Assembly (NCBI GenBank): GCA_025362955.1 | Contig: JANYFB010000308.1 | Location: 1-48,345 of the forward strand | Source: Akkermansiaceae bacterium | GTDB taxonomy: Bacteria > Verrucomicrobiota > Verrucomicrobiia > Verrucomicrobiales > Akkermansiaceae | Reading direction: 5' to 3' | DNA: 48,345 nt | Shown: in pieces, positions 3,152 through 48,005 of the stretch | How positions within the stretch are numbered: the first letter of the stretch is position 1 | Layout: every line of letters starts with the position of its first letter | The notes under the pieces: generated by a model | Told to the model about the DNA's origin: nothing | Databases searched by the model: none | The model's input: the letters and a program-made list of their open reading frames with translations, nothing else | Program-made: the position numbers and the translations under genes

Positions 3152-3646
3152 CTATTTCTTCTTTTTCTCCTTCGCGCCGACGCGTGGCAACTCGGCATCC
3201 AATAGCGCGATATCCGCTAGAGTCACGCCCTTCCAAATGACGAGGACGCCGTCATCGACCTGCTTATCAATCATCACGCCACCCACGATCCGACCGTTCA
3301 TTTGCGAGAGCATCCACCTACCTTGGCTAGCATTGGTGATAGCGGACAATCGGTTCGCGATATTCCCCTTAAGCCGGAATGCTACGCCGTAATCGTCCCC
3401 GACATCTGCGGGAAATGGGCTGAAAGCCACCATGTCCTTGAGGGAAAACTCTGGAATGCGGCGGAAATAGCGGGTCTGTCCGTTCGTCAACTGCGGGAAA
3501 ATCATTTTCTGGTTGTCCGTGCCCTCAGTCTCCATGTGAAAAGTGACGGAACATTTCTCCTCCTTCTTCCCACCCGCGAAAACGGAGGGAGCCAAGGCCA
3601 GAATGACCATCATCGTGACTGCTGCGATGCGCGTCTTCATGACCAA
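3152..3646 (-). CDS. Small secreted protein of unknown function
   Basis: Signal-peptide-like N-terminus (MKTRIAAVTMMVILALAPSVFAG), Lys-rich C-terminus; same strand as neighbouring genes. Confidence 0.6.
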   Translation of the reverse strand: MVMKTRIAAVTMMVILALAPSVFAGGKKEEKCSVTFHMETEGTDNQKMIFPQLTNGQTRYFRRIPEFSLKDMVAFSPFPADVGDDYGVAFRLKGNIANRLSAITNASQGRWMLSQMNGRIVGGVMIDKQVDDGVLVIWKGVTLADIALLDAELPRVGAKEKKKK

Positions 3647-4153: not shown

Positions 4154-4191
4154 GACGCAAAATAGCCCGTGAATGACGCAATTTCACCCTA
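4154..4191 (+). promoter_or_regulatory. Putative AraC/XylR-type operator pair A
   Basis: gacgcaaaatagcccgt (4154) and gacgcaatttcacccta (4175), 21 bp apart, upstream of the transporter gene. Confidence 0.7.
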
Positions 4192-16145: not shown

Positions 16146-16183
16146 GACGCAAAAAAGCCCCACTGCGACGCAACAATGCCCCT
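16146..16183 (+). promoter_or_regulatory. Putative AraC/XylR-type operator pair B
   Basis: gacgcaaaaaagcccca (16146) and gacgcaacaatgcccct (16167), 21 bp apart; gatact -10-like hexamer at 16196-16201. Confidence 0.75.
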
Positions 16184-18914: not shown

Positions 18915-20126
18915 TTGTATTTCCGGGCGTCCGGGATTGTCCTTAACCTCCGACAAGCTGTGAAATCCAAAAAGAAACGCATTGCCCTGATCGGACTGCC
19001 GGTCCTGCAGTCGGTGAACAACCTTTCCAACGCCGCGATAGCCCGGCACGCGGAAGAGGGAGGCAACTGGAGCTTCGTATTCAGCGCTGAGGCTTCGGTG
19101 GATGCTTTCAAATTCCTTAGAACCTTGAATTGTGACGGTGCCATCGTCCGCATCATGAATACGGCGATGCTGCGCGAGGCTAAAAAAGTCCAGTTTCCGC
19201 TGGTGAATGTGTCGTCGTGGTTAGAAAAACCAGGAGTGCCCACCGTGCGGCACGACTACGCTGCGGTAGGCCGGATGGCTGCGGAACACCTGTTAGAAAA
19301 AGGCTTCCGCCGCTTCGGCTGTGTGGTGGTGCCGGGAGGCTGGTTTCTGGAACAGCGACACAATGCTCTCGTCCGCTCGATCCGTGAGCACGGAGGCTCC
19401 TTGAAGTCGTTTCATCTGGAAACCACGATGCCGGGCCTTATCCAACCCGTTACTCAAGCCGAGCGGCGTCGCTTCGTGGAGTGGGTGCGGACGCTGCAAC
19501 GCCCGGCGGCACTGGTTCTGATGGACGATTGGGATGCCCCACTTCTGATGGAACTTTGTCGCGAGGCGGGCTACGAGGTTCCGCGGGATCTGGTGATGAT
19601 CACCACCGGCTGCCACAGCGAGGTGCTGCCTCTCTGCCGGGTGCCTCTGAGCGCCGTCCAGGAGGATCAGGAGCTCCAAGCAAGACTCGCCGTCGGATGC
19701 CTTGATGTTCTCATGACCGACAAGCAACCGCGCGAGACGATGATCAGCGTGCCGCCTCTTGGAATCGTGGAGCGGGCTTCAACCGCCACCATGGCCATTG
19801 AGGATCTCGAGGTTGCTCATGCCGTCGAGTTCATCCGTGGCCATGGGTTTGAACCGATCAACGTGACTGATGTCAGTAGCCGGGTGCAAGTCGCGCGGGT
19901 GACGCTCGAGCGGCGTTTCCGACAGTTGATGGGCAAGACCATGCACGAGTACCTCACCGAGCTGCGGGTGCGCCGGGCGAAAGAATTGTTAGGCGGCGAA
20001 TCACCTCTCAGTCTTCAAGCCATCGCCCAGCAATGTGGTCTGGCGGACCGCAGGCGTCTCAACCAAGTGTTCATCAGCGTTACCGGGAAAACACCTGCGG
20101 CGTGGCAGCAGGAGCAATCGGAGTAA
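18915..20126 (+). CDS. XylR-type transcriptional regulator: periplasmic-binding-like domain plus C-terminal AraC HTH
   Basis: KKKRIALIGLPV..., RHDYAAVGRMAAEHLLEKGFRRFGCV, C-terminal VARVTLERRFRQLMGKTMHEYLTELRVRRAKELLGG...SLQAIAQQCGLADRRRLNQVFISVTGKTPAAW. GTG at 18960 is a plausible alternative start. Confidence 0.92.
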   Translation: MYFRASGIVLNLRQAVKSKKKRIALIGLPVLQSVNNLSNAAIARHAEEGGNWSFVFSAEASVDAFKFLRTLNCDGAIVRIMNTAMLREAKKVQFPLVNVSSWLEKPGVPTVRHDYAAVGRMAAEHLLEKGFRRFGCVVVPGGWFLEQRHNALVRSIREHGGSLKSFHLETTMPGLIQPVTQAERRRFVEWVRTLQRPAALVLMDDWDAPLLMELCREAGYEVPRDLVMITTGCHSEVLPLCRVPLSAVQEDQELQARLAVGCLDVLMTDKQPRETMISVPPLGIVERASTATMAIEDLEVAHAVEFIRGHGFEPINVTDVSSRVQVARVTLERRFRQLMGKTMHEYLTELRVRRAKELLGGESPLSLQAIAQQCGLADRRRLNQVFISVTGKTPAAWQQEQSE

Positions 20127-20137
20127 TCACGGTCGGC

Positions 20138-20175
20138 GACGTAAAATTCCACGCTCGCGCCGCATTTTCGCCCCT
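20138..20175 (+). promoter_or_regulatory. Putative AraC/XylR-type operator pair C
   Basis: gacgtaaaattccacgc (20138) and gccgcattttcgcccct (20159), 21 bp apart; gatacc -10-like hexamer at 20188-20193. Confidence 0.7.
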
Positions 20176-38583: not shown

Positions 38584-40200
38584 ATGCCCCAAATCCAGAA
38601 TCCCGTTCTGACAGGCTTCAATCCCGATCCCTCCATTTGCCGGGTCGGCGCTGATTACTATATTGCGACTTCCACATTCGAATGGTTTCCCGGCGTGCAA
38701 ATCCATCACTCGCGCGATCTCGCGAATTGGCGGTTGCTAGGACGTGCGCTGGACCGGGTGTCCCAGCTCGACATGCGCGGTTGCCAGAACTCCGGCGGCA
38801 TCTGGGCTCCATGTCTAACCCACGCGAACGGGAAATTCTGGCTGCTCTATACGAATGTCCATCATCACATGGGAGGTGTTGTCATGGATACGCCGAACTA
38901 TCTCGTTACAGCTGACAGGATTGAAGGTCCGTGGAGCGAGCCGGTTTTCCTCAATGCAAGTGGCTTCGATCCGAGTTTGTTTCATGATGATGACGGCAGG
39001 AAATACGTTGTCCAAATGCAAATGGGTGAAGCTCTAACACCAATCCGGTTCGATGGCATCTGGTTGCGCGAATACGATGCCGGGAAAGAAGCGTTTGTCG
39101 GCAAGCCGTCGAAGATCTGGGAGGGCAGTTCCATCGGCATCACCGAAGGGCCACACCTGTTAAAAAAGGACGGCTGGTATTATCTCATCACGGCCGAGGG
39201 CGGCACCTCGATGCGCCACGCTGTCAGCGTTTGCCGCAGCCGGGAACTTTGGGGGCCGTATGAAATCCACCCGGATAACCCAATGCTCACCTCGTTTGAA
39301 AAGGACCACCTCGTCCTAAAGTCCGCCGGGCACGGGTGTTTTGTGGAAACGCAAAATAGTGAGTGGTTCACCGTGCATCTTTGCCAGCGGCCATTGCAAC
39401 GTCCGGGACGGCAGGTTGGTGCTCGCGAGGAAAACAAGTCCGTTCCGCTTGGCCGGGAAACTTCGATTCAAAAACTGCGCTGGGATGCCGATGGCTGGCC
39501 GCGTCTCGCACAAGGAGACAACTCGCCGCTCGAAATTGTGGAGGTGGATCTAATTTCCCATCTATGGGCAACGGATGTCTTGCGAGATGATTTCGACGGA
39601 CCGGCGCTTAATCTTCATTTTCAAACCCTGCGCGAGCCAGTTGATGATTCATGGTTCTCTCTCACACGCCGCAAGGGTTGGCTCAGCCTGCGTGGCCGCG
39701 ATTCGTTGGCTTCGACCTTCGAGCAAAGTCTAATCGCCCGGCGGCTCCAACATTTTGCAGCACGCGCGGAAACCTGTCTCGCTTTCCAGCCATGGAATTT
39801 CAAACAGTCCGCCGGACTCATCGCTTATTATGATCGGTTTCACTATCATTACTTCCGAGTCACCTCTGCGGGTGATGGGACAATAAAACTCGGTGTGATT
39901 TCATCGGAAAATACCAAGTTGGATTATGTCCATGTAGTCGAGCTTCCCCTTGCCGCAGGGAATCAGCTTTTCCTACGGATGGAGAATGATTGGGCGGAAC
40001 TCCGCTTCTCGTGGTCCACGGATGGAGTTGAATGGCAGGTCGTCGATTGTGTCTTCGATGCCACCATGCTGGGTGACTGGGTTTCCCCGCACAGCAATTT
40101 TACAGGCACTTTCTGGGGCGTCTGTTGTCAGGATCTATCAGACCGCACGGCCTGGGCGGACTTCGATTACTTCGACTATCAGCCAATCGGCGAGTTATAG
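38584..40200 (+). CDS. Glycoside hydrolase family 43 (beta-xylosidase-like)
   Basis: NPVLTGFNPDPSICRVGADYYIATSTFEWFPGVQIHHSRDLANWRLLGRALDR; GFDPSLFHDDDGRKYVV; paralogue of 10279-11808. Confidence 0.94.
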   Translation: MPQIQNPVLTGFNPDPSICRVGADYYIATSTFEWFPGVQIHHSRDLANWRLLGRALDRVSQLDMRGCQNSGGIWAPCLTHANGKFWLLYTNVHHHMGGVVMDTPNYLVTADRIEGPWSEPVFLNASGFDPSLFHDDDGRKYVVQMQMGEALTPIRFDGIWLREYDAGKEAFVGKPSKIWEGSSIGITEGPHLLKKDGWYYLITAEGGTSMRHAVSVCRSRELWGPYEIHPDNPMLTSFEKDHLVLKSAGHGCFVETQNSEWFTVHLCQRPLQRPGRQVGAREENKSVPLGRETSIQKLRWDADGWPRLAQGDNSPLEIVEVDLISHLWATDVLRDDFDGPALNLHFQTLREPVDDSWFSLTRRKGWLSLRGRDSLASTFEQSLIARRLQHFAARAETCLAFQPWNFKQSAGLIAYYDRFHYHYFRVTSAGDGTIKLGVISSENTKLDYVHVVELPLAAGNQLFLRMENDWAELRFSWSTDGVEWQVVDCVFDATMLGDWVSPHSNFTGTFWGVCCQDLSDRTAWADFDYFDYQPIGEL

Positions 40201-40899
40201 AGTCGCAGCATCCGTGATGCGTTGGACTTCGGTGGTGCCGTTCACCGGATAGATGATGACCATGGTGCGCTGGCCGGGGCGGATGACCCAGTTGTTCGAG
40301 TAAAGCCGCCGGTCGTCCGCTAGGGATACGGTAGCGAAGCGGGTCTCGGGTTTTTCTCCGATCCCGGTTTTAAAAAGTTCCACGCTTGCGGGGGTGATGG
40401 TGGCTGCGGAATCTCCAAGCGTGGCAGCGAGGCGGGCGGCGGTGAGGTTGATGAACCGACAGGTGGTGTCGGGGAACGACTTTGGATCATCCGCTAACAC
40501 GAGAGTCATGAGGATTTCCGGGCGATCCGGATGGGGCAGAAACAGAACGAGAGGCAGGCTGCCACCTTTGGACAAATCTGCCTCTGCTACGACCTTGCGG
40601 ATGGGTTTACCATCGGCACCGACGGCCTTGCGAAAGAACACCACTTTACCGGGACCGAGGCGGTCGTAGTAATTGGAGCGGCTGCTGTCGAAAATGCCGA
40701 TGGTTCCTTCCTTGCCCAATTCCTTCTGGGGCGTGCCAGCCTCAGGCATCGCGGCGTAGGAGAGTTCCTCCACAGTCACCCGGCAGCCGAGAGTACGGAA
40801 CGTTCCCTTGCGATTTTGGTCGGACTCCTGGGCCGTTAGGGGCAGGAGGGCGCTGAATAGAGCGATGATGCTGCAGGGAATTTTTAGTTTAGATCTCAT
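40195..40899 (-). CDS. Secreted protein of unknown function
   Basis: ATG at 40899 gives signal peptide MRSKLKIPCSIIALFSALLPLTAQ; overlaps the end of the upstream minus-strand gene. Confidence 0.6.
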   Translation of the reverse strand: MRSKLKIPCSIIALFSALLPLTAQESDQNRKGTFRTLGCRVTVEELSYAAMPEAGTPQKELGKEGTIGIFDSSRSNYYDRLGPGKVVFFRKAVGADGKPIRKVVAEADLSKGGSLPLVLFLPHPDRPEILMTLVLADDPKSFPDTTCRFINLTAARLAATLGDSAATITPASVELFKTGIGEKPETRFATVSLADDRRLYSNNWVIRPGQRTMVIIYPVNGTTEVQRITDAATL

Positions 40900-43800
40900 T
40901 GGGTGAAAGCCAGCGGAAGGAGGTGATTGTGAAACTACGACCAAAAATCTTGTTCTTTTCGGATTTCAGGTCGGCCAGGGAAGCTTCTGCGGGATCGGTG
41001 GAGCCGTCGAGAAATTCGGGCAGGCGCTGGACCACCGCCTCGGCGATCACTTGGGCGATGACTCGCCCACTAGCGTCTATCGCCTGTCCGCAGGCTCTGA
41101 CGGTGAAGGTATCGGAGCGCACCGTCATCGCTGGGGAAAACGCCTGCACGATATCCTGCTGCATGAGATATCCCGGCATGCCGGTGGCGGTGTTGAGGGT
41201 GTTTCCTTTCGCGTCCTTCAGATTACCGGGGATCATGGCGGGTGTGCCACCGGTGACGGTGGTGGGCACGCCTGCCGCCTTGGCGGTGGCATTGACATCG
41301 GGCGAAGTATTGTCGATGGCCGCCTGGAGCGCCCCGGCGCGAGTGAGCGGGCCGTCGGGGCCGAGGCGGCGATTGAGAAAATCCGCCATGCTGAGAAACG
41401 GCCCGCGGAGCTTTACCTGCTCGACGATCCGTGCCGCGAGTTCATCCAGCTCCGCGTCATTGAGCACGCGTAATCCGTCCCATGCGGAGTTTGGGTTGCA
41501 ATTGGCGGAAGCAGACCAGAAGCGTGGGATGGGATTTTTGTTAGGACCGGTGCCGAGATCGAGAGTGGTCGCATTGCCTGAGGTGGCGTTGAAAAGGCGC
41601 AGCTTGTTGCCGGACAGGCTTCCGAGGAGCGCCTTCCAAGCACCGGTGGAGGTGGAGTTGACGTTGAAGGCACCGTCGAGAATCAAATTGGCTGCGGCTT
41701 TTTCCACCGACCGCAACTCATCCATGCGGAGGGGTTTGCTGGCTGGCGAGCGCGGCTTGATGCGTCCGTTGAGCAGCGGTTTATTAAAGTCAATGAGGAC
41801 GCTGCCTGCATTGGCGTCATTGAAATCATTCCAATAAGCAGGCAAGGTGGTACCCGACGAAGCAGCGGCGGGGGGCACGGTGGAGAGGAAAAATCGGTCG
41901 AACAAGGCCTGGTTGGCCAAGAACGAATCATCCAGGAAAAGGGTGTCGCTGGTGACACTTCCGGCGACGGTGGGTGAGGTCAATGCGTTATTGTCCAACG
42001 GGATGACTGGCGAAGGGAGCGAACCACCAACAAACATCGAACCCATTCCCAAATAGGCAAAGTTTCCAATTGTTAGGAAATTCATCGCTGGCATGTGCAT
42101 GAATTGTCCCAGCGAAACCAACGGCTGGCGCGGCACGTCGCGCAAGATGTATCGATTGCTGGGCATTCCGGATCCAGCACTGGCATCGCCGAACGAAGTC
42201 TGCCAGACATTCGGGTTGCCAGCCGGGTGGACGATCTGAACATCTGTCTGCCCATTGGTATAAATCCCGCCGAAGGGGCTTAGATAGACTTCCTTCCAAG
42301 GGTATGAGGCGGAGTCCTCCAACGGAGTGAACTGGCTGAAATTGCCATGAAACAACGGGATCTGGTTGGCGGCGTTGGAATAGGTAAATGTAGAGGCAGA
42401 GGGCTTCAGGCCTTTCTGGCGGATGTAAAAGCCAATGATCCTGCGGGGTTGGCTATTCATCTGGCTGATGGAAAGTTTCTGCCAGCTTCCCGCCGATGCC
42501 GGTTGCTGATAGGAGCCGCCCGCCTGGGCGCGGGCGGAACCATCGTTGTCAGGCCATTTGTAGTTGGGAGGATTGCAGAAAGTGTCCACGGCCTGGCATC
42601 TCAGTGAGGGTGCGCTGAGCTGGATGCTGATCTCGGCGTTCGGATCGGTAGTGGAGAAGGGAGTTCCCGAGCTTTTACCGGTGGTGGCATCAGCGGTGGC
42701 GGGCAGGTCACAATATTGCGAGTAGTCTGCGGACATTCCGGGGTTGGAAACCAAGTCGCTGAAGGTGATCGCCGCTTTCGGGTCGCTTTTCAACTCATCC
42801 GCATCGAGCGCAAAAACACGCGTCTCGCCAGGTTCAAGCGTGGCGCAGGCACCGGCTTTTGTTTTGAGGGTAAGGCGTCCGGCGTCTGCTTGGTTGATGA
42901 GAGAGTAGGGAACCGTAATCGTGGTGTTTCCGCTTTTGGCAGAAACCTTGATGCAGGTCACGGTGGGTGATGCCGCATTGTAGGATCCGGCAGTGGCGAA
43001 GGCTCCGAAGTTTCTCTGGAACTGATAGTCGCTGGCTTGAATTCTAGCGGAATAGGGATTGTAGAGAACGAGCTGTGGGTAGTAATGAAGCCTGAGCCTC
43101 CAAGCCGGCGTGGTTGCGTTACCGGCATTATAGCTGGAGATCGCGACATCGACGCGGAATGCGATTGGCATCGGTGCGATACCGGCCTGCTTGGTGCTGG
43201 AGCCTGCGAGTTTGACTCCATAATAGCGTGGAGAAAGGACATTGGGCAGGGTTTCCGGTGTTCCTGAACTCGTCGGTGCGGTGGAAGGCTTGCCACTGGA
43301 CGCTATCGGGGAACTCATTAGACTTTTATAAGTGTTGTAATGGAAATAGAGCGAATGCCACGGCAGGCCATCAGTGATTTCCGGATTGGCGGGCTGCACT
43401 CCTGAAGGAATCGTGGGATCGGTGTTGGCGCTGTTGGTGGAATAGCGGTAGAGCATTGCCGCACCGTTGCCGTAGTTGTTGAGCAAGCTTTCGAATGCCG
43501 AAGGGGTTTCAAATGCCGCAGTCAGGTCTTTTTTTAAACCGCCGTGACGAACGTCAGCGATTACCCCCTGGCTGTTCACGGTAAAATCGGGAGAATAACG
43601 GGCGATCGGGTTTTTCATCGAAACCTCGGGCAGCAATTTAACCGTTTCGAGAGTCAGGAATTTCGCCATGGTTTCCGGCGGTGATTTTCGCAAATCCAGT
43701 CCTGTGGAAGCCATTGGCAGCACCTTCTGCATGGCATTCGCCTGAGGTGCGAGATGATGGAGTTGATCGATGGCTGCCAGACCGCTGGAGAACGTGAAAT

Positions 43801-44518
43801 CTACCAGATTGGCCTTCGCCTTCAATCCCTCATCGCAAACCCAATATCCGTAGCGACCGCCGGGCGTCGAGATGGTGGAGCCTGGCACCTTCACCAGCGG
43901 CACCGTCACCTCCGCCAGATCAGCCCCAAGATTTTTTGCAATGACGACACCATCCGCATCGGTGTTGTTAGATATCGCAGTGTACCCAATAGGATCGAGC
44001 GGATTCTGGCTGCCCGGCTGGGGATTCGACACAAGCCAACGGGCGGCTAGCGTACGGCTGGTGCCTATGCTGTCGGTCCTTTGCGCTTCAGTCGGCTTGC
44101 TCCCGGTTTTCCAGACACCGGTCCAATACTTCTGGTTCACACCCTCCACTGCAGGTGTGTCAGGCTTGGAGTCCAGAATTTCCGCCCTCGCGGTGATGCG
44201 CTGATCGGGCCCGGCTTCTTTTTGAAGCTCACCGATGGCCAGCATCAGACCCATGCGGGCATTGGCACGCGCGGTCGCCATGGCCTCTTCCTGTGTGGAA
44301 CTGCGCAGCGAGATACTGGAAAGCGAGAGCAATCCGATGGCGATGACCGTGAGCAGAATCATCAGGCTTAACGTGACAACAAGCGCGAAGCCCCTGTTAG
44401 TTTGCGGGGAGCTGTCATGGCAGCGGGGAGATCGAAAAAAGGCAAAGGTCTCCCCTGTTGCCAAATCCTCCCCAGGGTCTAACGAACTATTCACGCTGTA
44501 ACCATCATGTTGATTCAT
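40889..44518 (-). CDS. Verru_Chthon cassette protein A-like protein (large, pilin/PilX-like N-terminal TM)
   Basis: RGFALVVTLSLMILLTVIAIGLLSLSSISLRSS N-terminal helix; about 1200 aa; ELDELAARIVEQVKLRGPFLSMADFLNRRLG. ORF-track start 44557 lies within an apparent operator; ATG 44518 or GTG 44494 more likely. Confidence 0.6.
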   Translation of the reverse strand: MNQHDGYSVNSSLDPGEDLATGETFAFFRSPRCHDSSPQTNRGFALVVTLSLMILLTVIAIGLLSLSSISLRSSTQEEAMATARANARMGLMLAIGELQKEAGPDQRITARAEILDSKPDTPAVEGVNQKYWTGVWKTGSKPTEAQRTDSIGTSRTLAARWLVSNPQPGSQNPLDPIGYTAISNNTDADGVVIAKNLGADLAEVTVPLVKVPGSTISTPGGRYGYWVCDEGLKAKANLVDFTFSSGLAAIDQLHHLAPQANAMQKVLPMASTGLDLRKSPPETMAKFLTLETVKLLPEVSMKNPIARYSPDFTVNSQGVIADVRHGGLKKDLTAAFETPSAFESLLNNYGNGAAMLYRYSTNSANTDPTIPSGVQPANPEITDGLPWHSLYFHYNTYKSLMSSPIASSGKPSTAPTSSGTPETLPNVLSPRYYGVKLAGSSTKQAGIAPMPIAFRVDVAISSYNAGNATTPAWRLRLHYYPQLVLYNPYSARIQASDYQFQRNFGAFATAGSYNAASPTVTCIKVSAKSGNTTITVPYSLINQADAGRLTLKTKAGACATLEPGETRVFALDADELKSDPKAAITFSDLVSNPGMSADYSQYCDLPATADATTGKSSGTPFSTTDPNAEISIQLSAPSLRCQAVDTFCNPPNYKWPDNDGSARAQAGGSYQQPASAGSWQKLSISQMNSQPRRIIGFYIRQKGLKPSASTFTYSNAANQIPLFHGNFSQFTPLEDSASYPWKEVYLSPFGGIYTNGQTDVQIVHPAGNPNVWQTSFGDASAGSGMPSNRYILRDVPRQPLVSLGQFMHMPAMNFLTIGNFAYLGMGSMFVGGSLPSPVIPLDNNALTSPTVAGSVTSDTLFLDDSFLANQALFDRFFLSTVPPAAASSGTTLPAYWNDFNDANAGSVLIDFNKPLLNGRIKPRSPASKPLRMDELRSVEKAAANLILDGAFNVNSTSTGAWKALLGSLSGNKLRLFNATSGNATTLDLGTGPNKNPIPRFWSASANCNPNSAWDGLRVLNDAELDELAARIVEQVKLRGPFLSMADFLNRRLGPDGPLTRAGALQAAIDNTSPDVNATAKAAGVPTTVTGGTPAMIPGNLKDAKGNTLNTATGMPGYLMQQDIVQAFSPAMTVRSDTFTVRACGQAIDASGRVIAQVIAEAVVQRLPEFLDGSTDPAEASLADLKSEKNKIFGRSFTITSFRWLSPNEI

Positions 44519-44527
44519 GTTTGAAAA

Positions 44528-44565
44528 CAGGGTTGTTTTGCGTCGGTATAGTGTCATTTTACGTC
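44528..44565 (-). promoter_or_regulatory. Putative AraC/XylR-type operator pair E
   Basis: Minus strand gacgtaaaatgacacta (from 44565) and gacgcaaaacaaccctg (from 44544), 21 bp apart. Confidence 0.65.
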
Positions 44566-44607
44566 AGAATCAGCGGGATGAGTGCAATCCGGAGTGAGTG
44601 CGGTCTT

Positions 44608-44645
44608 GACGTAAAATTGCACGCCATTGACGCAAAATCGCCCCT
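44608..44645 (+). promoter_or_regulatory. Putative AraC/XylR-type operator pair D
   Basis: gacgtaaaattgcacgc (44608) and gacgcaaaatcgcccct (44629), 21 bp apart; gatgct -10-like hexamer at 44658-44663. Confidence 0.75.
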
Positions 44646-44768
44646 CTTGCGGTGAATGATGCTTGAAACAAACTTTCGTATGAAAGCCCCGCCATGATTC
44701 CGATGGTGACCATATCCAGATCAATCGGCCGGAGCGCTAATTTTTAAAAAGCAGGCCAAAGTAATCAC

Positions 44769-47700
44769 ATGATAAATTTCCAACGTTTCCTTTTCAGCGT
44801 GATCTGTCCGCATCTTGCGGCGTTGCCGCTGGCGTTTTCCCAAAGCGTGCCAGCTCCCCTTGCTCCCCCCCAGCAGGATCGCGGACTACCCTATACCCGA
44901 ACGGCTATTCCGGCTGCACTCGAAAAGATCCGAGGCGGGATCGCCGTTTTTCCGGGTAGCCGCTATGGTTACGTGAAGGGCTTGCGGGTGCGGTTAGACG
45001 AGAAGGATTTGCTGCGGGCGGAAGCCGTTTCGAAAGACGGCGTGGTGTACGTGCCGGGTTCATTTGCCGCTCTGGTCGGAATAGCGGAAATCAATCCCGC
45101 GCCTGTGCCGGAGGATCTTGCCGCCATCGCGGATCGTTGGGTTTACACCCCTGGCGAGTTGGTTGGGAAAAGTCGCGGGGCATACACTCCCGCTGGAAAT
45201 GTCCGAACGCTGAAAGTTCGTGATGCGACCTACTACGCGATTGATGATGTGGCAGCGGCAACGGGTCTGAAAGTCACGAGCCATCCGCGTGGTCTGGTCT
45301 ATCTGGGAGAAAGCGCTCTCACCTTCGGAGCAGACGAGGACGCAGTGCTGGATTCCGTCATCACTCTTTTTGACACGCCGGATAAATTCGCCGATCCGGA
45401 CATCGCGACGAGATCAATCCCGAATCTAACACGCCAAGGTAAATGGACGGACCATGTCAAGGTCACTCCCGAGCAAATGGCCATTTTACACGGACCGGAA
45501 ACCGAATGGCCGACGGTGCCGAAGAATCAATATAATTTCAAAGGTTTCGACAAGACGTTGCTGGGTTCGGAAATGCCAGCGCCGGGAATCTATCCGCGTC
45601 TGCTCTTCAGTGCCAAGGACGTGCCAATGCTGGCCGCCAGAGTCAAGGCCACGACGGTCGGACAGATGTCGCTCATCGAAATGGAGCATCTATTCAAAAA
45701 AACTTTCTGGGATCCGCAAACGAGCGATGGAGAGGTTTTTCAAAAACTCGCGTCGGGAAATCTCACCGGTCTGGAGTGGCCGGACGATGTTCGCCCGGAG
45801 CAGATCGCTACCGTCAACACCGCGCAGCAGTTCAAAGGACAGAAACAGGGGATCTACAATTCACACGTTGCCTATATGCCGGAATGCCTGACCTCAATGG
45901 CGCTCTATTGCTTGATCGCCAACGACGACGATCATGGTCGCCAAGTGGCTGCGGCGGTCGCCAACTACTATAAACTGCGCGAGCCGTTGATCGACGAGTG
46001 GCTCAAAATCAGCGATTCAGAGTTCGGCTCATCACTGCGCAAACCGGATGGAACTCTCGTCTCGCTCAACGCATCGGGTGCCCGCACGCACTGGCGGAAC
46101 ATCCACGGCTTGGTCGCCCACATGAATCTCGGACTCTCTCTCGACCTCGCCGGAAAATGGATGAATGCGGTACAAAAAGACGTGATGCGCCGCGTCATCG
46201 CGAAGGCGACCTATGGCAGACGGTCCTATGGCCAGGATGCACCGGTTAGATTCCGCGATGTGAACTGGATGGCCTGGGATCTTCCCCATTTCATTGCGTT
46301 GGCGGCGATTGAAGGGCTGCCGGGATTCGACGCGGAAGCCTACGCCTCGGGGGCGGAAAGCGTGCGTGCGTTTTGTGATTGGGGAATCGACGAAGCCGGC
46401 GTGATTTTTGAAAGCACTGGGAAAAACCCCGGTGCGCTGGAGTTTGAACTCCTCTCGATGGTGATCATGGCGCGGCACGGTGAAAACCTTTTTGGCCATC
46501 CGCACTGGCGAAATCTAATGGAGGCCTCGGTCCAGATGAGCTCGCCGACAGGCCGGGTCATGGTGAACAGCGGGACGCAATATTCTCCTTTCAGCCGTCA
46601 GAAGCTGTCGCGCTTCCTCGTTCCTGAATTGAAGTGTTTCTATCCGGAAAGCCGCCTGCCGGACTATTGGCTGACATCGATGTTCAACGACGCCGGAGCC
46701 GACCCTAACGACCCCACCTGCCTTCTGCCACCCGATAAGTTTTCCGCCGATGATTACCGCGCGAAAGTCCCTACCCTCCCGCGCCTGCGACTGCCTAGCG
46801 TGACCTATCCGGGGATGGCACGGAATGTGTTATACGACGCCGATATTCAGCCGACGAAGCGCTCCGACCTAAAACTGCCGCTGGATTTTAACGCGCCATG
46901 GCAGGGTGCCTTTTCCAGCTACAGTGATCGGACGGTGGAGGCGGCATGGATGCATCTTTACGTGCGTCCCCATCATTATCTCGGTGCCGGCCATCATCAT
47001 GCCGATGCGGGCATGTTCCACTTCTCCGCGCTGGGAGTGGACTGGTTCACCCAATCGCCTTTCTCCCAAACCTACGACGGAAAGTACTATAACCTCGTCC
47101 AAGTGGACGGCGAATCCGAGCCGACCGCAATTTCAGGCGGGCCGTTAGGCTACAACGGTGCAGCCACCTATCTTGGAGCGGTGATCGGAAATGATGCCTC
47201 GGTCGGTAGCGCGGATCTAACTTACGCCTATTCATGGAGATGGAACACGCAGCCGCCGCAAGTCTGGTCGGACGAACTCGGTGCCATGGGCTGGGAACTC
47301 GATCCGTCTCCGGAAAATCTCCGTATCTGGGCGGGCACGGCCCGATACAAAATGCGGCCGTGGTGGTCTAACTACAATTATTCCAACTACATCCCGACCA
47401 GCCGTGCGCCGTTTAATCCAATGCAATATGTCTTTCGGAGCACTGCGCTCATTCGTGGAGTCCAACCCTATGGTATAGTTATAGATGATTTGAAAAAGGA
47501 CGAGTCACCGCATCTCTATCAGTGGGCAGGAATGCTGAATGGTGGAGTATGGAAAGCCGAGGTTCCGGGGCTCGCGTCCAACCAAATCGCTTTGGCCACA
47601 AATGGTCTTGATCCGGATTTGAATGCGAGTGAAACCCGGAAGACGCTGGAGCCGAAAGCGGGTGATCCGCTGTTGATCGTCACGGCGCTTGGCATGGATT

Positions 47701-48005
47701 CGAGTGGTGATTCCAAGCTGCATCTCCTTCAGGTGGAAACGGCCCCGGGACCGTCGGATCGAAACGGCAAGCCGATGTTTCATGATCGCCTGCTGATCAA
47801 CCGGCGTGCGGTCTCGGCGAACTTCCGCGTGCTTCTCCTGCCAGTGCGGGCCGGCAGCCCGATACCTGTCGTTTCGTGGGACGCCACCCGCCAAACCGCC
47901 ACCGTCAATTTCCCCGGACAGCCCGACACCTTGCACTTCAACATCGCCGACGATCAACGCACCCGCCTCGGGGCAAGCCGCGGTGACAAGGTGATGATTC
48001 ATTAG
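44769..48005 (+). CDS. Secreted heparinase II/III family protein with copper-amine-oxidase-N-like domain
   Basis: VVYVPGSFAALVGI...RTLKVRDATYYAIDDVAAATGLKVTSHPRGLVYLGE (Cu-amine-oxidase-N-like); MPAPGIYPRLLFSAKDVPMLAARV; GHHHADAGMFHFSALGVDW; RAVSANFRVLLLPVRAGSPIPVVSW. Confidence 0.85.
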   Translation: MINFQRFLFSVICPHLAALPLAFSQSVPAPLAPPQQDRGLPYTRTAIPAALEKIRGGIAVFPGSRYGYVKGLRVRLDEKDLLRAEAVSKDGVVYVPGSFAALVGIAEINPAPVPEDLAAIADRWVYTPGELVGKSRGAYTPAGNVRTLKVRDATYYAIDDVAAATGLKVTSHPRGLVYLGESALTFGADEDAVLDSVITLFDTPDKFADPDIATRSIPNLTRQGKWTDHVKVTPEQMAILHGPETEWPTVPKNQYNFKGFDKTLLGSEMPAPGIYPRLLFSAKDVPMLAARVKATTVGQMSLIEMEHLFKKTFWDPQTSDGEVFQKLASGNLTGLEWPDDVRPEQIATVNTAQQFKGQKQGIYNSHVAYMPECLTSMALYCLIANDDDHGRQVAAAVANYYKLREPLIDEWLKISDSEFGSSLRKPDGTLVSLNASGARTHWRNIHGLVAHMNLGLSLDLAGKWMNAVQKDVMRRVIAKATYGRRSYGQDAPVRFRDVNWMAWDLPHFIALAAIEGLPGFDAEAYASGAESVRAFCDWGIDEAGVIFESTGKNPGALEFELLSMVIMARHGENLFGHPHWRNLMEASVQMSSPTGRVMVNSGTQYSPFSRQKLSRFLVPELKCFYPESRLPDYWLTSMFNDAGADPNDPTCLLPPDKFSADDYRAKVPTLPRLRLPSVTYPGMARNVLYDADIQPTKRSDLKLPLDFNAPWQGAFSSYSDRTVEAAWMHLYVRPHHYLGAGHHHADAGMFHFSALGVDWFTQSPFSQTYDGKYYNLVQVDGESEPTAISGGPLGYNGAATYLGAVIGNDASVGSADLTYAYSWRWNTQPPQVWSDELGAMGWELDPSPENLRIWAGTARYKMRPWWSNYNYSNYIPTSRAPFNPMQYVFRSTALIRGVQPYGIVIDDLKKDESPHLYQWAGMLNGGVWKAEVPGLASNQIALATNGLDPDLNASETRKTLEPKAGDPLLIVTALGMDSSGDSKLHLLQVETAPGPSDRNGKPMFHDRLLINRRAVSANFRVLLLPVRAGSPIPVVSWDATRQTATVNFPGQPDTLHFNIADDQRTRLGASRGDKVMIH

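Follow-up and report, generated by a model that had tools for sequence, protein, structure and literature searches.

Near the right-hand end of the window, the 48,345-nucleotide stretch of DNA analysed here, two divergent genes are separated by an intergenic region that carries two back-to-back operators, D and E (Table 1). The gene on the minus strand encodes a giant protein with a prepilin-type N-terminal helix, here called GspK-like, and is followed by a gene for a small secreted protein. The gene on the plus strand encodes a large secreted protein, which is probably a polysaccharide lyase. The cluster also encodes two GH43 proteins, one GH88 protein, an acetylesterase-like protein and a XylR-type regulator, and further operators stand before other genes of the window, including one for a giant repeat protein.

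Table 1. Positions of the genes and operators of the cluster within the window
Feature	Position	Strand	Remarks
Further operator	4154-4190	+	Before the SSF transporter gene (4350)
Further operator	16146-16182	+	At the start of a sugar-isomerase-like gene
XylR-type regulator	18915-20126	+	Periplasmic-binding-protein-like sensor and AraC helix-turn-helix; proposed to bind D and E
Further operator	20138-20174	+	Before the gene for a 2312-aa giant repeat protein
Small secreted partner	40195-40899	-	Its 5' end overlaps the 3' end of the GspK-like gene; absent from the sequence-only reading
Giant GspK-like (prepilin-helix) protein	40889-44464	-	Proposed start TTG 44464; mechanical ORF from ATG 44557
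Operator E	44529-44565	-	Direct repeat of two half-sites; faces the GspK-like gene
Operator D	44608-44644	+	Direct repeat of two half-sites; faces the lyase gene
Large secreted protein	44769-48005	+	Probable polysaccharide lyase, heparinase/PL15 superfamily

The back-to-back operators

In both D and E, GACGYAAAATNNCNC is repeated directly at a period of 21 bp. Operator D reads GACGTAAAATTGCAC gccatt GACGCAAAATCGCCC on the plus strand and operator E reads GACGTAAAATGACAC tatacc GACGCAAAACAACCC on the minus strand, each with a 6-bp spacer, and the two point away from each other across a gap of 42 bp. Repetition of a half-site every 21 bp is a geometry known for AraC-type activators. When the strict pair was searched with up to three mismatches, five matches were found in the 3.92-Mb genome (four in the window and one on contig C97) and none with a reversed-pattern control; with up to two mismatches there were 12 matches across 73 genomes of the same genus, and again none with the reversed pattern. 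Operator E scored 33.4 bits with a matrix made without it, compared with 9.4 bits for the best non-operator site in the window and 12.4 bits for the best site in reversed sequences; as D and the other window operators are among the 12 sites of this matrix, their own scores are not independent. The strict-pair counts, the empty controls and the matrix score bear out the sequence-only reading of an operator E facing left and an operator D facing right, and we regard it as almost certain that both are real.

The operator pair on contig C97 precedes genes for giant PATR-type proteins. At one place on this contig (L030, 841-898), three half-sites were seen in tandem, in 21-bp steps, ahead of a PATR protein gene.

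The regulator

The candidate for binding these operators is the regulator encoded in the cluster, in which a Peripla_BP_3 domain (E 4.7e-22) and an HTH_18 domain (E 2.7e-16) were found. XylR of E. coli likewise joins a LacI-like sensor to an AraC helix-turn-helix, and it acts in the divergent xylA/xylF region through direct-repeat operators with a period of about 21 bp. The window shares with that regulon the domain architecture, the repeat geometry and the placing of two back-to-back operators between divergent genes. It differs in the operator sequence and in the genes served, which here are lyases, glycosidases, PATR proteins and the pseudopilin-like cassette.

Orthologs of the regulator, 79-86% identical, are present in five other genomes of the genus. 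The strict operator was found in five of the six genomes that carry the regulator and in two of the 67 that do not (Fisher p = 8e-6, 73 genomes), a test that counts genomes as independent when related genomes are not fully so; one of the two regulator-free genomes with the operator is only 59% complete. From its domains and this co-occurrence, it is very probable that the XylR-type regulator of the cluster binds both D and E.

One regulator ortholog (G030, L113, G030:C126:13917-15098), 79% identical, has a single TAA stop inside the match. The genome in which it lies is the only regulator-bearing one without the strict operator pair.

Identity of the GspK-like protein

The minus-strand gene had been described as Verru_Chthon cassette A-like, and the part of this description that holds is the N-terminal prepilin helix. 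A profile of the protein family aligned with eight genuine Verru_Chthon A proteins over 64 N-terminal residues (profile-profile comparison, E 2.4e-5), whereas the protein itself scored 23.9 bits against TIGR02600, for which the cut-off is 332.3, and did so over residues 25-83 only. Membership of the Verru_Chthon A family was rejected on this score, far under the cut-off, and on the partner genes.

The similarity to GspK (NF037980) is likewise shown at the N-terminus only. The match of the window protein was 24.3 bits against a cut-off of 130 and covered the prepilin helix and its flank only, and the N-terminal match was found in eight of the ten members of the family. In the C-terminal third, landmarks can be recognised by eye in the order in which they occur in GspK (FNVNSTS, GPFLSMADFLNR, VRSDTFTVR), but when the GspK profile was compared with this part by hhalign the result was not significant and the order was not confirmed. 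Homology to GspK over the full length was not borne out, as the profile comparison supports the N-terminal helix alone, and at about 1190 residues the protein is also far larger than GspK, with about 330. Searches of the PDB with the profiles of the GspK-like protein and of its small partner gave no matches. On these comparisons the minus-strand gene is a member of a giant GspK-like family distinct from Verru_Chthon A, with several copies in the genus.

It could be argued that the protein is instead a genuine Verru_Chthon A that has diverged and no longer has B, C and D genes as partners. The shared helix and the similar size would fit, as would two weak collinear matches beyond the helix, which were obtained when the middle and C-terminal parts were compared separately (E 0.024 and 0.0083). 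However, besides the very low score, cut-off-passing Verru_Chthon A proteins occur in 90 of the 144 genomes of the order and in none of the listed genomes of its own bacterial family (32 genomes without a match being outside the list), and wherever the partner could be read it was a small secreted protein instead of B, C and D. We therefore consider this explanation quite unlikely and continue to treat the protein as GspK-like.

The start of the gene

The position of operator E has a bearing on where translation begins. ATG 44557 lies inside the operator, and ATG 44518, 11 bp past it, would give a leader of 42 residues before GFALVV. The sequence-only reading had taken the closeness of the second half-site, E2, to ATG 44518 as a sign of a later start, which agrees with these values, but the codon it suggested, GTG 44494 (a 34-residue leader, 35 bp from E), fits less well than TTG 44464 (24 residues, 65 bp). 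Leaders of relatives run to about 11-25 residues, and the distance between the other operators and their genes is about 50-160 bp; on both counts TTG 44464 appears the better candidate. The sequence GGGGAGG stands directly upstream of it, nearer than a ribosome-binding site normally is.

A two-gene cassette in several copies

The sequence-only reading saw no Verru_Chthon B, C or D partners in the window. This agrees with the next gene, which encodes a small secreted protein, a partner that this reading overlooked. For the B family (TIGR02598), the best match in the whole genome was a single one below the cut-off, on another contig. The genome holds five further copies of the GspK-like gene, two on contig C161 and one each on C13, C156 and C85; the copy on C85 is cut by the contig end, and each of the four complete ones is followed by a gene for a small secreted protein. 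The same kind of gene follows the GspK-like copies in four related genomes (G032, both copies of G050, G055 and G065), and in G016 the following gene was not identified as a small partner and the preceding one encodes a PATR protein. As a gene for a small secreted protein follows most of the copies, the unit is usually a two-gene cassette.

Probable control of the GspK-like operon from operator E

Whether E serves the left-hand gene can be judged from relatives and paralogs. In G032, where the ortholog is 83% identical, the right-hand neighbour is replaced by a GH43-like gene that has an operator pair to itself, and further on comes the lyase, with another pair; the GspK-like gene nevertheless keeps the left-facing proximal half-site (E2), GACGCAAAACACCCC, 76 bp before its start. 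In the host genome, a perfect half-site, oriented as E is, stands 101 bp before the start of a paralogous cassette on contig C161. In G065, a GspK-like gene 47% identical is divergent from the lyase ortholog and a D-type operator faces the lyase, with no convincing left-facing site in the gap. No site was found upstream of the 73% identical ortholog in G050, which is also without the regulator. The full E pair was found upstream of the gene in the window and not in G032, G065 or G050. Because a half-site is kept before the genes in G032 and on C161, control of the GspK-like gene through a half-site element is recurrent, as far as the sequences tell, and the complete pair was seen in the window alone.

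Another possibility is that E and D act jointly on the lyase only, with E as an auxiliary or looping site and the GspK-like operon expressed from a constitutive promoter of its own. Extra sites have such a role in some AraC-type systems, and the absence of the complete E pair from G032 and G065 would be explained, as would the short distance between E and the earliest ATG codons in the GspK-like gene. However, E points to the left, the E2 half-site in G032 stays before the GspK-like gene despite the different gene on the right, and the half-site on C161 precedes a paralogous cassette in the matching orientation. Control of the lyase only is therefore regarded as rather improbable, and that E controls the GspK-like operon as likely.

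The shared control of both genes that had been proposed from the sequence is thus supported by the real operators, the co-occurrence with the regulator and the retention of half-site and operators in G032. Absence of the motif from orthologous loci had been named as a finding against it, and this is the case for the full E pair in all three relatives but not for the proximal half-site in G032. The expected pairing of the gene with a lyase and the motif recurs in G065 for the divergent arrangement and the D-type operator, though not for a left-facing site, and in G032 the gene order has changed.

The probable lyase on the right

The right-hand protein had been called a heparinase II/III. No Pfam family, including the heparinase II/III models, matched the window protein or two orthologs up to E 5, and no NCBIfam family matched up to E 0.01. 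With a family profile widened by paralogs, the region of HHHADAGMF matched PL15 oligoalginate lyase at E 0.0022, and heparinase II at E 0.12. A heparinase-superfamily lyase is thus a plausible, weakly supported assignment.

A possible role in export or surface assembly

The operators, the link with the regulator, the two-gene cassette and the prepilin helix are supported by sequence comparison, and together they suggest a divergent, sugar-responsive control region between the GspK-like gene and the lyase. In the presence of its ligand, the XylR-type activator would bind the back-to-back operators, so that the lyase is switched on from D and the operon, encoding the giant GspK-like minor pseudopilin and its small secreted partner, presumably from E. 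The operon products could then cap or modify a pseudopilus of the type II secretion or type IV pilus kind, and the capped pseudopilus might export or assemble the large enzymes and the beta-strand-repeat (PATR) surface proteins of the regulon while polysaccharide is being used. The earlier proposal of a substrate-induced pseudopilus-like or envelope structure is reasonable in this respect, as the N-terminus matches GspK in most of the family, and the role itself is put forward here conditionally. That the operon works in a pseudopilus could go either way, and a minor-pseudopilin cassette induced by substrate under divergent XylR-type control and serving export or surface assembly is, as a whole, an evenly balanced proposal.

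The role in export or assembly is proposed because the genome encodes platform proteins of the GspF/PilC type and a GspK homolog of ordinary size, because the regulon contains PATR genes, and because PATR-adjacent cassettes and an alginate-induced pseudopilin are found elsewhere. A study of Verruconatronum alginivorum describes a pseudopilin encoded in an alginate-induced cluster, with 67 homologs in the genome and a proteome of one replicate per treatment (PMC13274419). In both bacteria a pseudopilin gene would lie inside a substrate-induced polysaccharide cluster, but the V. alginivorum protein, as described there, is PulG-like, the major pseudopilin type, whereas that of the window is giant and GspK-like.

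The alternative that the protein is a surface adhesin or substrate-binding protein, anchored by a prepilin-like helix and outside any pseudopilus, has to be weighed here. It would account for a size that is very large for a pseudopilin, for the co-regulation with carbohydrate-active enzymes and for the want of family or PDB matches outside the helix. However, the helix is GspK-like in most members, and the similarly laid-out genuine Verru_Chthon A proteins accompany prepilin-like B and C genes. An adhesin of this kind is therefore thought unlikely, and the minor-pseudopilin reading is retained.

The genuine Verru_Chthon cassettes are themselves of interest. In sister families, A-B-C cassettes lie directly downstream of PATR/PEP-CTERM surface-protein genes in eight out of eight loci, which were chosen by best score and not at random (L066, L067, L068, L070, L071, L072, L074 and L077). 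A literature search for 'Verru_Chthon' found no paper giving these proteins a role, and the adjacency is a lead to one. The A-B-C-D cassettes resemble that of the window in the prepilin N-terminal helix, the similar length of the protein, the multiple copies, the occurrence in Verrucomicrobiota and the company of PATR genes, but differ in having B, C and D where the window has one small secreted partner, and the homology shown is N-terminal only.

Verrucomicrobiota break down complex polysaccharides, and it is poorly understood how enzymes and surface proteins of very large size are exported by these bacteria. With a defined operator, a regulator and a two-gene cassette, this question becomes directly testable. 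It is a doubtful extension that each polysaccharide regulon induces its own giant GspK-like tip and small partner, re-tipping a shared pseudopilus for new cargo, namely lyases and giant PATR surface proteins; if true, this would amount to a substrate-programmed secretion system.

Promoters of the other cassettes

The cassettes on contigs C13 and C156 lie outside polysaccharide clusters, which counts against the proposed substrate-induced role. Three promoters of GspK-like cassettes (L026, 5492-5608 and 10002-10130; L038, 7079-7170) have a composite element in common, in which a half-site-like block is followed after exactly 11 bp by TTGCATTGTATTCAC or a near match. Directly before the cassette on contig C156 (L028, about 3460-3500) there is an imperfect palindrome, GTAACTACATTGTAGTTGC, which is possibly the site of a different regulator.
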